The notes beneath the pieces were generated by a model. The model did not search any database, was not told where the DNA came from, and saw nothing but the letters and a program-made list of their open reading frames with translations. 38,393 nt of DNA from a virus: the IMG/VR virus record IMGVR_UViG_3300033141_004518, positions 1-38,393 of that record; one strand, written 5' to 3'. Positions 3,485-29,659 of the stretch are shown piece after piece; the stretch's first letter is position 1; every line of letters begins with the position of its first letter. Both the position numbers and the translations under genes were made by a program.

Positions 3485-3522
3485 TTGAAGCTTCCTTTTC
3501 TTGAAGTTTTACCTTTTCTTTT

Positions 3523-3645
3523 TTACTTTTCTTTTGAATTTTTTTCATCGTTAAAACACACTACACTACTACGTAGTGTGTATAGTGTTTTTTTTAACTT
3601 TATTGTTTTAACTAAATGGATAAGTAAAGATTTATTCACACGCAT
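3523..3645 (-). CDS. Small hypothetical basic protein (40 residues)
   Basis: The frame starts at 3645 behind GAGGT, four bases after the preceding small gene's stop, and reads MRVNKSLLIHLVK to ...NSKEK. It resembles no family I know. Its middle coincides with a hairpin-forming sequence (palindrome ACTACGTAGT at 3568-3577), so the DNA may matter more than the peptide. Spacing and ribosome site favour translation. Confidence 0.45.
   Translation of the reverse strand: MRVNKSLLIHLVKTIKLKKTLYTLRSSVVCFNDEKNSKEK
3553..3592. repeat. Imperfect inverted repeat with perfect ACTACGTAGT core
   Basis: AAAACAC arms flank alternating CTAC/GTAG-type sequence, giving an imperfect stem around the 10-bp palindrome ACTACGTAGT (3568-3577). 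T-rich sequence follows on the plus strand. It lies just upstream of the helicase gene. It could be a protein-binding site, an attenuator-like mRNA hairpin or an origin-associated site; the sequence does not decide among these. Confidence 0.4.
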
Positions 3646-3648
3646 TTT

Positions 3649-3792
3649 TTACCTCTTCTTTTTTGCTTTCTTTTTCGTCATCCCGCTAACTATGCAATAT
3701 TTAGACAAGTCCACGTTATGCTGATACCGATAATGTTTCGAACTCGCTTTAACACCGAGCAGTCTTTTCTTCAAATCTCTTTGACGTCCCAT
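3649..3792 (-). CDS. Small basic hypothetical protein (47 residues)
   Basis: The frame opens at 3792 with an AAAGGA box six bases upstream. It reads MGRQRDLKKRLLGVKASSKH, then a Tyr-rich middle and a Lys-rich tail (TKKKAKKKR). The charge suggests nucleic-acid or ribosome binding, but no family is recognised. It starts 11 bases after the stop of the 73-residue gene before it, within a string of tiny genes between primase and helicase. Confidence 0.6.
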   Translation of the reverse strand: MGRQRDLKKRLLGVKASSKHYRYQHNVDLSKYCIVSGMTKKKAKKKR

Positions 3793-3802
3793 AATTGTCC
3801 TT

Positions 3803-4142: not shown

Positions 4143-4319
4143 TTAAAAATTCAACCTTAGCTGCTGGGTTAAATCTACGAACTTGTTACACGTACCAATC
4201 TGTTGTGTGTAAGTCCATAATTTATTCCTTTCTATCGTGGATTTCGGCAGAATGGAAAGAGGATTGCAAAGGCCACAAACGTTGCAATTACAAATATCGT
4301 CGTCATTAAAAAATACCAT
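4143..4319 (-). CDS. Small Cys-rich hypothetical protein (58 residues)
   Basis: The ATG at 4319 has an AAAGGCGGA box five bases upstream. The product has a compact CNCNVCGLC cluster near residues 10-18, suggestive of metal binding, then a Gln-rich tail. It competes with two other frames in the same DNA. One is a 24-residue hydrophobic peptide (4306-4232) with no ribosome site. The other is the frame starting at 4218. Only one of these arrangements is likely to be translated well, so confidence is moderate. Confidence 0.42.
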   Translation of the reverse strand: MVFFNDDDICNCNVCGLCNPLSILPKSTIERNKLWTYTQQIGTCNKFVDLTQQLRLNF

Positions 4320-4335: not shown

Positions 4336-4506
4336 TTATATTATCGTGGATTTTAACTGGTTTCGAAAAAATACTGATTTTCGCTCGTTGTCTACGCTGC
4401 TGTGAAAGTTGCCAGCGTGCTGAGGATAGACCACAAGCGATTTTTCAGCTCTCACGAGTAGTTTCGTACTAATATTCAATTTTAGTTGCTTAGGTTCGAT
4501 TCTCAT
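4336..4506 (-). CDS. Hypothetical 56-residue frame overlapping a duplicated sequence
   Basis: The ATG overlaps the primase TGA (ATGA), the usual coupling in this phage. The product begins MRIEPKQLKLNISTKLL. Its first 23 codons lie in a 68-nt sequence that recurs at 29037-29104. There the same frame reads RIEPK-stop-LKLKINTKLHTRAEKSL. Several differences between copies are synonymous, which hints at coding, but the TGA in the other copy argues for an RNA or DNA role. Downstream the strand can fold a GTCTA/TAGAC plus CGCTG/CAGCG stem-loop (4431-4390). Confidence 0.35.
   Translation of the reverse strand: MRIEPKQLKLNISTKLLVRAEKSLVVYPQHAGNFHSSVDNERKSVFFRNQLKSTII
4436..4503 (-). repeat. Copy A of a 68-nt dispersed repeat
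   Basis: Read on the minus strand this block begins AGAATCGAACCTAAG and ends GAAAAATCGCT. It aligns without gaps to 29037-29104 (plus strand) at 56 of 68 positions by my count. It starts on the last base of the primase stop codon and is sense to the leftward genes. Conserved stretches are ATCGAACCTAAG, TACGAAACTAC and GAGAGCTGAAAA. Confidence 0.85.
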
Positions 4507-5381
4507 TTGTTCTCTAAAAAGATTCTTCTTAGCCTCCTAATATCTTTACTACTGCAACCTACTATATCTTTTGCATCCAAGTTGACGTTGTAGGTTCTTC
4601 CCGGGAATACGGATAACTCGCCCGCCAGTTTTTCTGCTCTTCTTCGTGCCTCTCTTTCGTTATCAAAACAAACTGCTCGAAGTGGGTACTTCAATATTCT
4701 ATTTATTTGTGCTTGAGTGAATCCTGTCCCAAAAGTGCATACGGCGCCAGGCCCCATTTTCCAAACATCGGTAACTCCTTCGTGTATTATTATTCCGTAT
4801 CGGACGTAATCTTCTCCGTAAAGAAGACTTTTATGAGGTATGGCTTCTTCTTCTAAACCAGCACTCACGTACCTTGTGATTCCGCTGCTTTTCGATATAG
4901 AGCGGGTCGTCCAACTAACTACATTGCCTTGGTATATAATAGGGACGAATATTCTCCAAGAAAGGCGTTTCGCTATTCCTATTCCTTGTACTTTCCAAAG
5001 TCTTTTTAGTTTTTGATAGCTAAATCCTCTTCTTCGTAAATATTCTATATGGGCTTTTTGTAATTCGCCAACACCTTTAGGAATAATAAGTGTTCCCGTC
5101 ACTTCTTCTTTTTCAAACTTCGGAATCTCAAGTTCACTAATTAGCTGCTTGCACTTATGGTAAGGTAGGTTGGTAAGTTCCATAAGTGTTTTCATAAGTG
5201 GTTGTGAGCCGCATCGCCAACAGTTGAAATAATTTCCTTCTAAGGAATACCCTAAGTGCCATTTGTGTGCATCTTTTGCACAGAACGGGCAATCGATTTG
5301 AATCCAGCCCGGCCGAGCGTGATGATGTCCTTCTGGTGCAGTAGTTATGTTCAGTTGTTTTAATAGGTCAGCAAATTTCAT
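4503..5381 (-). CDS. DnaG-type DNA primase (CHC2 zinc finger plus Toprim)
   Basis: The 292 residues show an N-terminal zinc-binding region with CPFC (31-34), His 39/42 and CWRC (54-57). A central RNA-polymerase-like segment follows, then a Toprim domain with the glutamate in HEGVTDVW (about E201) and the acidic motif CFDNE (about 239-242). It is shorter than cellular DnaG and lacks an obvious DnaB-interacting C-domain, as in many phage primases. It should lay RNA primers at the fork opened by the DnaB-like helicase encoded downstream. Its ATG follows the previous stop by one base (TAAAATG). Confidence 0.88.
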   Translation of the reverse strand: MKFADLLKQLNITTAPEGHHHARPGWIQIDCPFCAKDAHKWHLGYSLEGNYFNCWRCGSQPLMKTLMELTNLPYHKCKQLISELEIPKFEKEEVTGTLIIPKGVGELQKAHIEYLRRRGFSYQKLKRLWKVQGIGIAKRLSWRIFVPIIYQGNVVSWTTRSISKSSGITRYVSAGLEEEAIPHKSLLYGEDYVRYGIIIHEGVTDVWKMGPGAVCTFGTGFTQAQINRILKYPLRAVCFDNEREARRRAEKLAGELSVFPGRTYNVNLDAKDIVGCSSKDIRRLRRIFLENK

Positions 5382-5833: not shown

Positions 5834-7206
5834 TTTTGTTTTCCTTTCAGCAGGGCTTTTTCGAGTTCGTCGAATATACTTAAACGATTCTTTCTTTTAC
5901 TTCCATCAAGTGTTTGGGAGAGGACGCCCTGTTTCGTTTGGAGTATTTCGCAAAGATGGTGCTCAATGGTATCTTTTGCGACGAGGTAATAAACAAGTAT
6001 TGGCCTCTTCGATTTCTGGTCAAATATTCTATCTTCACACTGCGTTAAGTCTCCGGGCGTCCAGTCTAATTCAACCATAACAGCTGCTCTTCCTTTTGAT
6101 AGTTCTATTACCGTACCAGCGGCAGTTGTATTGCCTATAAATATTCTGCACTTCTTACTCGTTTGGAAAGTCTTAACGCATAGGTGGCGTTTCTTGCCTC
6201 TAATGCTACCATCAACTACAACACATTTTCCTTTGTATCTCTCGTGAAGTTGTTTTATAATATCTTTATGAATTGCAAAAATTACGAGTTTTCCTTTATT
6301 CTTTCTTAGCCATCTGTCTATCCATTTGAGAGTATTTTTCATTTTTAAGGAAACTGCGAGCCGTTTCAAATATCCCATTTGTACAAGGCGTTTTGCTTTC
6401 TTAGCTTTAATCGCACGGGTTAGCGAGCGTTTACTTAACCATTTAATAAAAGAAGTTTCGGCTTCAATATATTCTTCTTCGTTCGATATTGATATAGGTA
6501 TGATTCGTCTGTCTTTTGGAAGCTCTCCCATTCCTTCTTTCCTTAACATTCGAATCATACACCAAGCCTTTAGGTTTTTATGCAGCTCGTCTAAGTGTGC
6601 CGCTCCTTTGAACTCCCAGCCCCAAGGTTTGCGTTTTGGAGCACAATAACGATGGGCATAAATTGTTCGGGATGGAAATTTGTCAGGTCTGAGAAGATTG
6701 AGAATATTAAAAAGTTCAATAGGCCTGCTCTTTAGTGGAGTTCCTCCCATCGCGATAATGTAGGGTATTCCTTCTGCAAGTGTTTTTGTTGCTTTGTAGC
6801 ATTGGGTTGTTGGCTCTTTGATAAAATGAACTTCATCGAGTATGAGCGTCCTTATGCCTTCCCTACGAAGAAAGTCGACCCAATATTGAAGTATTTCCCA
6901 GTTGAGTACGTATAGGGTGTCCTTGTGCAAAGATTTTCCTTTGGGTGGGGTGGTGCCATTTAATACCGTCGCTCTTATTTTGAAATAGTCTCCCGCTTTT
7001 TCTTTCCAGTGGAGCTTACCTATTTCAGGGCATACGACGACCGCTGGTCTTGCTGTTGGTTTCGATTTTAGCCATTGGAGAGCAATAAAGGTTTTGCCCA
7101 TTCGCATTTCGTAAGCAAGTAAAGCCCTTCCGTTGAAGTGTATTATTTTTCGCAAAGCTTTGCGTTGGTAGCTTCTATCTTCTTTTTGTTTATTCTTGAA
7201 GGGCAT
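5830..7206 (-). CDS. SNF2-family DEVH-box helicase/translocase
   Basis: A superfamily 2 ATPase of about 458 residues, counted from the ATG at 7206. It has a Q-motif-like YQRKAL (13-18), Walker A variant EMRMGKT (33-39), Walker B LILDEVHF (121-128), motif III GGTPLKSRP near 153, and a C-terminal RecA lobe ending in LVAKDTIEHHL. Phage SNF2 proteins are thought to remodel or unwind DNA at origins or during repair. I prefer 7206, with AGGA just upstream, over a GTG at 7287 that would overlap the sigma-like gene by about 98 bases and adds nothing to the domain. Motif VI reads QCEDRIFDQ and is shorter than the usual QxxDRxxRxGQ. Confidence 0.85.
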   Translation of the reverse strand: MPFKNKQKEDRSYQRKALRKIIHFNGRALLAYEMRMGKTFIALQWLKSKPTARPAVVVCPEIGKLHWKEKAGDYFKIRATVLNGTTPPKGKSLHKDTLYVLNWEILQYWVDFLRREGIRTLILDEVHFIKEPTTQCYKATKTLAEGIPYIIAMGGTPLKSRPIELFNILNLLRPDKFPSRTIYAHRYCAPKRKPWGWEFKGAAHLDELHKNLKAWCMIRMLRKEGMGELPKDRRIIPISISNEEEYIEAETSFIKWLSKRSLTRAIKAKKAKRLVQMGYLKRLAVSLKMKNTLKWIDRWLRKNKGKLVIFAIHKDIIKQLHERYKGKCVVVDGSIRGKKRHLCVKTFQTSKKCRIFIGNTTAAGTVIELSKGRAAVMVELDWTPGDLTQCEDRIFDQKSKRPILVYYLVAKDTIEHHLCEILQTKQGVLSQTLDGSKRKNRLSIFDELEKALLKGKQK

Positions 7207-7747
7207 TCCTAATCTCTTCGAAAGCTTCTTTAATTCTTTTCGTTTTCCAATTGAGCTTGGTAAATAGATAATTTTTAATGTGGGCACGTGTTCTTCTTTT
7301 GCTAAATCCTTTCACTAAGTCTTCATCGGGCAGCCCTTCTGGTGGTGAAAAAACCAGCTGTATAATTATTTTCGAATCAAGACTAACTTCTTCAAATAAT
7401 CCTATCGTATGTGAGTGGTTCTTCTTTTTCGTTAGTAATTGATTCGTGTCTATGTCTTCGAGGGAGGTCTTGGTGTGCTTTTTGTCCTTGTTGCGATAAT
7501 CGAGCAGTCTCTTCCAAACGAAGAAGTATAACCACGTGGTAAAATACGCTTTTGTTTCCTGATAGGAATCGAACGCGAGAATAAATTGAAGATTGGCTTC
7601 CGCTTTCAGTTCTTCGAACAGCTCTTCAAAATTACCATTAAAATCCTTTTTGTACTTTTCCGTAAATCTCCAAATAATTTCGTACGTTAAATTTTCCACG
7701 TCGTTAAAAGTTTCCGTGAGAGCATCTTTTCTTAGTGCACTTTCCAT
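7190..7747 (-). CDS. Sigma-70-like RNA polymerase factor (region 2)
   Basis: Residues about 40-95 (LFEELKAEANLQFILAF ... TWLYFFVWKRLLDYRNK) match the pattern of sigma region 2.1-2.4. The aromatic TWLYFFVWKRLLDY segment stands where -10 recognition and core binding occur. The C-terminal ~70 residues are helical and basic (SKRRTRAHIKNYL, LNWKTKRIKEAFEEI) and could be a degenerate region 4. At 185 residues it has the size of small ECF or phage sigma factors. It may direct host polymerase to middle or late promoters. An AAAGGA box precedes the ATG. Confidence 0.65.
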   Translation of the reverse strand: MESALRKDALTETFNDVENLTYEIIWRFTEKYKKDFNGNFEELFEELKAEANLQFILAFDSYQETKAYFTTWLYFFVWKRLLDYRNKDKKHTKTSLEDIDTNQLLTKKKNHSHTIGLFEEVSLDSKIIIQLVFSPPEGLPDEDLVKGFSKRRTRAHIKNYLFTKLNWKTKRIKEAFEEIRNALQE

Positions 7748-9168: not shown

Positions 9169-9200
9169 TTTTTCCCTTTCAAATTAAATGTTATTATTGC

Positions 9201-9234
9201 GGTTGCCCCCGCTCTACGAGAGCTAAGGGGCAAC
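9201..9234. other. Strong intergenic hairpin between two leftward genes
   Basis: GTTGCCCC (9202-9209) pairs with GGGGCAAC (9227-9234), and an inner GCTCT/AGAGC stem sits inside. On the minus strand it lies after the 79-residue gene's stop and before the SLOG gene. No T-run follows on either strand, so it is not a canonical terminator. An mRNA-stability or processing element is more likely. Confidence 0.6.
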
Positions 9235-9245
9235 GGGTAAAAAGT

Positions 9246-10640: not shown

Positions 10641-10696
10641 TTTTCTACCCTTTCAAATGTTTCGTTTCTTTTAGCACTTTTAATGTGTCTATTGTT

Positions 10697-10724
10697 ATTA
10701 TACGATGGTACTCGTACTATTGAA
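10697..10724 (-). promoter_or_regulatory. Leftward early promoter
   Basis: On the minus strand a perfect TATAAT (10702-10697) lies 16 bases from a weak TTCAAT -35 (10724-10719). The orientation and the distance to the first leftward gene suit an early sigma-70 promoter. The weak -35 and the repeat between the boxes suggest regulation. Confidence 0.6.
10706..10719. promoter_or_regulatory. Operator-like GTAC-N2-GTAC repeat between promoter boxes
   Basis: TGGTACTCGTACTA is a near-palindrome (GTAC half-sites with a 2-base centre) lying exactly between the leftward -35 and -10. A repressor bound here would block the promoter. The XRE-type protein at 7772-7960 is the obvious but unproven candidate. 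Confidence 0.4.
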
Positions 10725-10785
10725 CTAAAATCTTTAGGTTTTTCAAAAATAAATGAAAATTTTTCGAAAATCATGGCTTAAGATA

Positions 10786-10804
10786 ATAAAAACCGTGTTT
10801 TTAT
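10786..10804. promoter_or_regulatory. Perfect 8-bp inverted repeat in the control region
   Basis: ATAAAAAC and GTTTTTAT flank CGT. The repeat lies midway between the divergent promoters, so it could be an operator or a small bidirectional hairpin. The surrounding ~150 bases are very AT-rich and hold no gene that I can support. Confidence 0.4.
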
Positions 10805-10879
10805 ACGTAAAATTTTTTAAGAAAAGTACCCAAAAATAAGTGTGTATCGTAATGGAATCAGTGTTTGCATATTTTTTAA

Positions 10880-10909
10880 TAGACTTTCCAATATTTCATA
10901 ACGTATACT
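10880..10909 (+). promoter_or_regulatory. Rightward promoter for the structural unit
   Basis: TAGACT (10880-10885) and TATACT (10904-10909) are spaced 18 bases and lie 57 bases before the first rightward ATG. The leader then contains a small TACTG/CAGTA hairpin (10932-10947). The boxes are a moderate match to sigma-70; a phage-directed sigma could also use this site. Confidence 0.5.
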
Positions 10910-10965
10910 AATAAAGCAGATGAATGGGTGGTACTGTAAAAGCAGTATTGAATCAGGGTATTATA

Positions 10966-28465: not shown

Positions 28466-28528
28466 TTGTTTTGTAGTACCGTTTCGTATTTCGTAAAAAT
28501 GAAAAACTAAAAAGAAGGAGTGTTCAAA

Positions 28529-29038
28529 ATGAAAGACGTTAGTTCAGCCATAAACATATCCATCAATGTAGTGGGTTCGCCCGACGCGGCTGACCTCGAT
28601 TTGGCGACCGCTGTTGCTAAGTGTGCCCTTAGCAGAGGAAAGACGTTTGCTAATGGTGTTGGTTCTGACCAAGTGAATACTTGGTATTCCGATACTCTTG
28701 GTGTTACTGGTGGAAGCAACGATACTATTGATTTACAAGGTGGTGGCGACGAAGTCGATGCTTTCGGTAATTCACTTGATATAGACAAGTTGAAAGTTCT
28801 TTACCTCAAAAATCTTTCCGATGCAGCTATGACAATTGGCCCCAAGGCTCAAGGAATTAGCATCGTTGGAGATATAGCTACCGACGTTATCAACCTTCCA
28901 GTCGATGGAGAGATACTGATGATTTTTGGCGGTGATGGAATTACCGTCGATAGTGAACATAAGGACTTGTTCATCGCCGCTGGAGGTTCGGGAACTAAGG
29001 ACGTCGAAATACTCATTGTCGGAGTTACTTCTGCGTAG
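28529..29038 (+). CDS. Virion protein, tail-tube-position candidate (169 residues)
   Basis: The ATG at 28529 has AAGGAG at eight bases; a GTG nine bases earlier would lie inside the box spacing. The sequence is strand-rich (INISINVVGSPDAADLDLAT). It has FGNSLDIDKLKVLYLKNLSDAAMTIG and a final HKDLFIAAGGSGTKDVEILIVGV. The LY(I/L)KN ... TIG pattern recurs in phage structural proteins of unassigned role near tail genes. Its stop codon overlaps the start of repeat copy B. Confidence 0.55.
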   Translation: MKDVSSAINISINVVGSPDAADLDLATAVAKCALSRGKTFANGVGSDQVNTWYSDTLGVTGGSNDTIDLQGGGDEVDAFGNSLDIDKLKVLYLKNLSDAAMTIGPKAQGISIVGDIATDVINLPVDGEILMIFGGDGITVDSEHKDLFIAAGGSGTKDVEILIVGVTSA

Positions 29039-29104
29039 AATCGAACCTAAGTGACTAAAGCTGAAAATCAATACGAAACTACATACGAGAGCTGAAAAGT
29101 CGCT
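29037..29104 (+). repeat. Copy B of the 68-nt dispersed repeat
   Basis: It begins on the second base of the TAG stop of the preceding gene and matches 4503-4436 (minus strand) without gaps at about 56 of 68 bases. Its ends can pair: AATCGAACCTA (29039-29049) with GAGGTGCGATT (29105-29115), allowing mismatches. A second AGTGACT/AGTCGCT helix with one G-U pair sits inside. The same reading frame as copy A has a TGA at its sixth codon. Confidence 0.85.
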
Positions 29105-29155
29105 GAGGTGCGATTGTGTGCTTATGTGTGATACTATAGCAGTTGGTGCAAGCTT

Positions 29156-29659
29156 ATGAGTACGATAATTGGAAATCCCGTACCCGTTAAGATAGGATTT
29201 AAGTTGTATTTAGTAGCTTACGTATCCTTGTCAGAATGGGAAACTTTCGAAGCTTTGGTTCGGAGAGATTCAAAAGATGGGCAGTTTTTGTTTTATTTAA
29301 TCCATTGTTCTTTACGTAGAGGCGACCCAACTATTACTAAAAGGAAGGTTAGAAAACTCATCAGATGGCATAAAGCTATGATGGTTTTGGTTGTCTCTAT
29401 AATTCGTGGAATGAGTCTCCCCGTGTCCAAACTCTCAAAAAACAAGGACGTTAAAGTTCCGGAGTTGGATACGAAGCAAGCCGAAAGGAACATGAAAACT
29501 ATCTGCCGTGTATTAAGTCGTATCCACGGATGGACACCTCAACAGATTGGGGGTATGTCGCCAGCACAAATATATTCCTATCTAATGGGAGGCAAAAGTG
29601 GAACTGGTATAGAGAAGATGAGTTCAGAGGAATATCAAAACTTTTTAAGTAGGGGATAA
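29156..29659 (+). CDS. Tail assembly chaperone-like protein
   Basis: It lies just before the tape measure gene, where tail assembly chaperones are encoded. The N-terminal part (GFKLYLVAYVSLSEWETFEAL ... SLRRGDPTITKRKVRKLI) and a helical middle lead to GWTPQQIGGMSPAQIYSYLMGG, a motif I associate with chaperone C-terminal parts. I do not see a clear -1 slippery site with a second frame, so a frameshift product is not supported. The ATG overlaps a tiny 11-codon frame (ATGA). Ribosome site weak. Confidence 0.6.
   Translation: MSTIIGNPVPVKIGFKLYLVAYVSLSEWETFEALVRRDSKDGQFLFYLIHCSLRRGDPTITKRKVRKLIRWHKAMMVLVVSIIRGMSLPVSKLSKNKDVKVPELDTKQAERNMKTICRVLSRIHGWTPQQIGGMSPAQIYSYLMGGKSGTGIEKMSSEEYQNFLSRG

Follow-up and report, generated by a model that had tools for sequence, protein, structure and literature searches.

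Phage lambda carries two nut sites, nutL and nutR, one untranslated site in each of its divergent operons. In phage HK022, putL and putR are two similar untranslated cis elements of ~70 nt, located one per phage operon and in the sense orientation (PMC9378689). Each put copy contains two stem-loops; the sites lie just downstream of PL and ~270 nt downstream of the PR start, and they suppress termination by binding to the zinc-binding domain of the RNA polymerase β′ subunit.

Here we describe a 68-nt sequence that occurs twice in an IMG/VR phage record of 38,393 bases, which was analyzed over its whole length and is called the window below. The likeness to put lies in its length, in the number and 82% identity of its copies, and in their placement, one in a minus-strand and one in a plus-strand operon, both sense. 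By analogy, an arrangement of one untranslated site per divergent arm would also resemble that of nutL and nutR, although the repeat has no established boxA/boxB pattern and no N-like protein came to light. The differences from put concern structure and location. Copy B forms one long imperfect hairpin and copy A has no stable 68-nt fold, and the copies lie ~6 kb (A) and ~18 kb (B) from the divergent region, with no promoter above chance adjacent to them. Because neither two stem-loops nor a promoter-proximal site was found, we did not file the repeat as a put RNA.

Genome setting

Genes of the window are read leftwards from ~10.6 kb to 0.4 kb (including those for an SNF2-type helicase, primase, and a DnaB-like helicase) and rightwards from 10.9 kb to 35.8 kb (terminase, portal, capsid, tail genes, and tape measure); beyond 35.8 kb they are read leftwards again. 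The divergent intergenic region is at 10641–10923. A frame that reads as radical-SAM-like extends beyond the left end, which makes the record a fragment, and additional copies of the repeat could therefore lie outside it. The nearest relatives form a mosaic: the replication genes resemble those of phage G001 (primase and helicase each 55% identical), and the structural genes resemble those of phage G008 (capsid 84%, portal 69%). A search for the host, using the terminase against bacterial genomes, gave no match. The gene at 7190–7747 (minus strand) has a weak sigma-70 region-2 match (Pfam E 2.9e-4; PHROG sigma factor E 6e-4) and a homologue in G001, and is a candidate phage sigma factor.

Copy A (4436..4503, minus strand) lies in a 183-nt gap 3′ of the primase gene (4503..5381, minus; PHROG 47, E 5.5e-27), the product of which has a C-terminus matched by relatives. 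The next gene call downstream (4143..4319, minus) encodes 58 amino acids without assignment. Copy B (29037..29104, plus strand) lies in a 117-nt gap between the gene for a 172-aa structural-module protein (28520..29038, plus; PHROG 22694, unknown function) and a 167-aa gene (29156..29659, plus) that precedes the tape-measure gene. The 167-aa product has a 48% identical homologue in G008 and, from its position before the tape-measure gene, is probably a tail assembly chaperone.

Properties of the repeat

The two copies align without gaps and are identical at 56 of 68 bases. Self-BLAST of the window gave E 1.4e-12 for this pair, which was the sole repeat below E 0.01 in the 38.4-kb record. Each copy lies between genes, in the sense orientation of its own operon, and there is one in each half of the genome. 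An earlier note, made from the sequence alone, had described the pair, and its coordinates, strands, length, and identity proved exact, as did its placement of both copies sense to transcription in opposite arms, in a minus-strand and a plus-strand operon. The note was also correct that the flanking DNA is unrelated: the 12 bases following position 68 matched no better than random 12-mers. An extension of the homology to ~79 nt, which would include the 3′ arm of the copy B hairpin, was suggestive only, at chance level, and was rejected.

The first base of the similarity is the last of the primase TGA in copy A and the second of TAG in copy B. The onset inside a stop codon, to which the note had drawn attention, is thus real; in the alignment the stop codon of one copy is shifted by one base against that of the other, and therefore the stop codon itself is not a feature common to both copies. 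The repeat starts there because unrelated coding DNA ends there, and no special cause is needed.

Ten of the 12 differences between the copies are transitions. The differences are mildly clustered, with adjacent ones commoner than expected (p about 0.02), and the alignment contains invariant blocks of 15, 11, and 12 bases. A template/variable pair of a diversity-generating retroelement (DGR) was rejected because the differences are not restricted to the adenines of one copy.

Search for further copies

Two models were built from copies A and B, a covariance model with the fold of B and a sequence-only model, and were searched against the window together with 638 kb of relatives (69 loci). Both returned A and B alone, the next match having E 0.89; an unfiltered search of the window gave the same two, besides B's own reverse strand. 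The earlier note had named a failure to find further copies in relatives as a refutation of its interpretation, and for these 638 kb this was the outcome. Scans with exact IUPAC patterns over the invariant blocks gave no match in viral contigs (18 specified bases) or in bacterial and archaeal contigs (20 bases), and there was no credible homologue of the repeat among GenBank phages and plasmids. The 15-base block AGAATCGAACCTAAG was present in 28 public contigs, in all of which the other 53 bases were unlike the repeat. G008 conserves the two genes that flank copy B; the 132-nt gap between them bears no relation to B, and its folding does not stand out from that of shuffled sequence. A core-like sequence elsewhere in G008, GGTGACTAAATTGTGTTTAGTATGAAACT (L029 1448-1476), is probably a chance match plus a recurring leader and was set aside.

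The absence of a third copy from the record, from the 638 kb of relatives, and from the pattern-scanned contigs argues against a mobile element, which was one half of the note's suggestion of a mobile or regulatory element; a regulatory role is possible. A tRNA remnant or attachment core was suggested by AATCGAACC, which is complementary to a tRNA T-arm motif. This candidate was rejected, since no tRNA or tmRNA was found on either strand and the 28 public matches to AGAATCGAACCTAAG had no likeness to the rest of the repeat.

RNA folding of the two copies

The 68 nt of copy B alone fold with -10.5 kcal/mol (z -1.9). When 12 bases of 3′ flank were added, the value was -22.7 kcal/mol (z -5.05), and none of 200 shuffled sequences was as good. 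The resulting imperfect hairpin (29039..29116, plus) pairs AATCG/CGATT, ACCT/AGGT, AGTGACT/AGTCGCT, and AGCT/AGCT; the helices that the note had drawn for copy B are those of its minimum-free-energy fold. The 68 nt of copy A folded no better than shuffled sequences (z +0.47). When the 20 pairs of B were mapped onto A, 13 were kept and seven were lost; three pairs were changed on one side only and none on both sides, so there was no compensatory change. The consensus fold of A and B had only -1.1 kcal/mol. From the lost pairs, the lack of double changes, and the weak consensus we conclude that the fold is a property of copy B and not of the repeat, and a hairpin conserved in both copies was rejected. 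The structured 3′ RNA proposed in the note therefore holds for copy B alone.

Another strong hairpin, different from that of B, has its start in the final bases of copy A (4381..4440, minus), with arms TCGCTTGT.GGTCTA and TAGAC.A.ACGAGCGA; it has z -4.29 (4376-4445) and a duplex of -19.7 kcal/mol. It uses downstream sequence, is followed by a T-run ~10 nt further on, and is specific to copy A. Searches of Rfam gave no match for the whole window at gathering thresholds or around either copy up to E 1, in agreement with the note, which could name no RNA family. Neither a sigma-70 promoter nor an ordinary terminator above chance was found at the copies; the best sigma-70-like match at A (9/12) lies inside the repeat, is at chance level, and is absent from B.

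Coding potential

The note's second reading was a duplicated peptide segment, beginning RIEPK. In copy B this frame is interrupted by a TGA and lacks a start codon. The differences between the copies fall at codon positions one, two, and three in numbers of 3/4/5, without a third-position excess, and five changes are synonymous against 4.1 expected by chance (p 0.38). No relative examined encodes the peptide. The duplicated peptide was rejected on these grounds.

Copy A opens a 56-aa ORF (4336..4506, minus) that overlaps the primase stop as ATGA. We judged it not to be a gene: it had no family match and no homologue, and outside the repeat its codon usage is not gene-like. Within the 68 nt of either copy, codon usage in the RIEPK frame is at the median for genes of the phage; frame 2, which contains stops, has an equally good score. 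Programmed ribosome bypass at copy A was also rejected. The primases of relatives end where that of the window ends, and therefore no coding resumes after A.

Pseudoknotted elements in relatives

A helicase search gave 42 loci of relatives, 38 of which contain the primase gene. Several open a gene at once after the primase stop (ATGA overlap), and others have a gap. In seven of these gaps (L117, L086, L003, L093, L077, L087, and L100) we found two crossing long helices with the order H1 5′, linker, H2 5′, H1 3′, H2 3′, often with a T-rich tail next. The elements are ~70–105 nt long and their crossing helices are perfect; the arm sequences mostly differ between contigs, and the architecture is constant. 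A pseudoknot scan of the relatives gave 24 matches at or below -38 kcal/mol versus two in shuffled sequence, and 12 versus none at -44 kcal/mol, the real counts including overlapping variants and contigs present more than once. Unrelated control contigs had no match at -38 kcal/mol. 

Fourteen intergenic members were listed, and some contigs hold more than one: L085:5950-6046, L085:446-537, L083:948-1039, L083:3397-3476, L086:2583-2678, L077:3059-3136, L003:3921-4019, L117:3112-3188, L093:799-900, L087:939-1018, L100:2280-2347, L080:2930-3024, L006:4730-4835, and L035:419-513 (minus). A sigma-70-like promoter (at least 9/12 bases) was present within 60 nt upstream of 10 of the 14, versus 3.4% of random positions; an L085 element has a perfect TTGACA-16-TATAAT. 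In the homologous pair L077/L083, compensatory changes affect three base pairs, of which two belong to H1 and one to H2. Rfam gave no match to these elements. As predicted from sequence, they look like a set of small-RNA genes and may possibly be a new family of phage small RNAs; with their promoters, they are a better-supported lead than the repeat itself.

Other repeated sequences also occur after the primase in relatives. In L102 a tandem array of AGAAACCCA and AAACGTGTCA units, with variable stretches between them, follows directly after the primase stop, and L091 and L092 have other repeated units directly after the primase. The linker of the G001 element (L003:3921-4019) includes ACGAAACAACTCG, which differs at a single base from ACGAAACTACTCG of copy A, and the two occupy the same gene junction; this likeness may be suggestive, and a chance origin is possible.

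Possible function of the repeat

We tentatively favor, as possible though short of probable, the interpretation that the repeat is a two-site untranslated cis-acting element present in the mRNAs of both operons and laid out like putL and putR. We infer that the repeat is functional and acts as RNA, and the step affected is likewise a matter of inference. The phage's two main transcripts would carry one such site each, and the copies would be kept similar by one factor that reads both in RNA, or in DNA during transcription. Placement directly behind a stop codon would leave the site free of ribosomes. Each site would be transcribed in the sense direction with the genes downstream of it, which for A are small ORFs and the replicative helicase gene, and for B the genes for the presumed tail chaperone, the tape measure, and the tail. 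The most likely effect would be a change in elongation or read-through of the transcript, or in mRNA processing, for these downstream genes. If functional, the repeat would provide a rare instance of two matched RNA control sites located mid-operon in a phage, and would be a candidate for the second example of a two-site layout like that of put; at present it is a short dispersed repeat in a single phage, and unexplained.

This interpretation is preferred because of the gap-free match, which is far beyond chance, the untranslated sense position of both copies in true intergenic gaps of a compact genome, and the layout of one similar element of about 70 nt per operon, as in HK022 (PMC9378689). 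The invariant blocks, the clustering of the differences, and the excess of transitions are consistent with it, as are the B hairpin and the separate hairpin beginning in A. Against it, the repeat is absent from the relatives examined, even at the same gene junction with a long gap, and A and B have no demonstrable common fold. Given the orientation of one copy, the other would also be sense by chance in 1 of 2 cases. The copies lie far into their operons and have no promoter above chance beside them, unlike put and nut, which lie beside early promoters. Paired RNA sites of an antitermination or processing system unlike put and nut, mid-operon in both arms and either protein-free or dependent on a phage factor, are unlikely. 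Ranking just behind the cis-acting pair, and nearly as likely, is a short functionless segmental duplication, now drifting and tolerated on account of its landing in intergenic DNA flush with the stop codons, which could have arisen by ectopic recombination, by template switching, or by acquisition of a copy that had diverged in a related phage. Its flush ends would be expected because copying into a gene would break the gene. The restriction to two copies, with none in relatives or scanned public contigs, and the lack of conserved pairing and of coding constraint speak for it, and 12 substitutions without an indel are compatible with neutrality; the mild clustering and the long invariant blocks speak against it. 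Non-functional DNA is, moreover, usually lost quickly from compact phage genomes.

The pseudoknotted elements of relatives raise the alternative that A and B are diverged or decayed members of that group. Like those elements, A and B are intergenic and sense, and seven relatives carry an element right after the primase, the position of copy A. In copy B a second helix, CATACGAGAGC with GCTTATGTGTG (-11.2 kcal/mol), can cross the first one, of 16 bp, at a spacing like that of the family, and a separate crossing pair can form in A; 0–3 of 150 shuffled sequences were as good, but many coding sites in the window score equally. Comparable imperfect pseudoknots are about as common genome-wide in coding or shuffled DNA, B ranking 21st and A fourth on their own strands, and the two copies use different segments for their crossing helices. 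The long perfect helices of the elements, their usual sigma-70-like promoter, and their frequent T-rich tail are lacking: the perfect-helix scan at the family threshold had no match at A or B, B has no following T-run, and within 60 nt upstream A has only the chance-level match inside the repeat and B has none. We consider membership improbable. Somewhat more improbable is a duplicated gene fragment that has decayed in B and possibly still forms the start of a 56-aa protein in A. The gene-like codon usage of the RIEPK frame in both copies would fit this origin, as would the ATGA-coupled ORF of A, an arrangement seen in several relatives after primase; it is opposed by the TGA and missing start codon in B, the equal score of the stop-containing frame 2, the atypical codon usage of the rest of the A ORF, the chance level of synonymous changes, and the lack of a homologue. 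The presence of the sigma-70 region-2-like gene at 7190–7747, and of genes of the same operon downstream of both copies, would suit a promoter or operator for a phage factor, for example that protein. With no third copy upstream of any other operon in the window, and a sigma-70 match at chance level at A and absent at B, we regard this as very unlikely and the least probable of the explanations.

Other intergenic features of the window

The left operon contains other strong intergenic hairpins, at 9169-9245 and 3485-3802 (minus), with arms GTTGCCCC..GGGGGCAAC and AAAACACACTAC..GTAGTGTGTTTT, respectively. The 167-aa gene before the tape-measure gene has no obvious Shine-Dalgarno sequence in the window (29106-29158) or in G008 (L029 2120-2160). 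In both phages it is preceded by a mini-ORF with a Shine-Dalgarno sequence, GAGGTG..GTG TGC TTA TGT GTG ATA CTA TAG in the window and AGGGGG..ATG GTG ACT GAG TAG in G008, and re-initiation control of the gene is possible.
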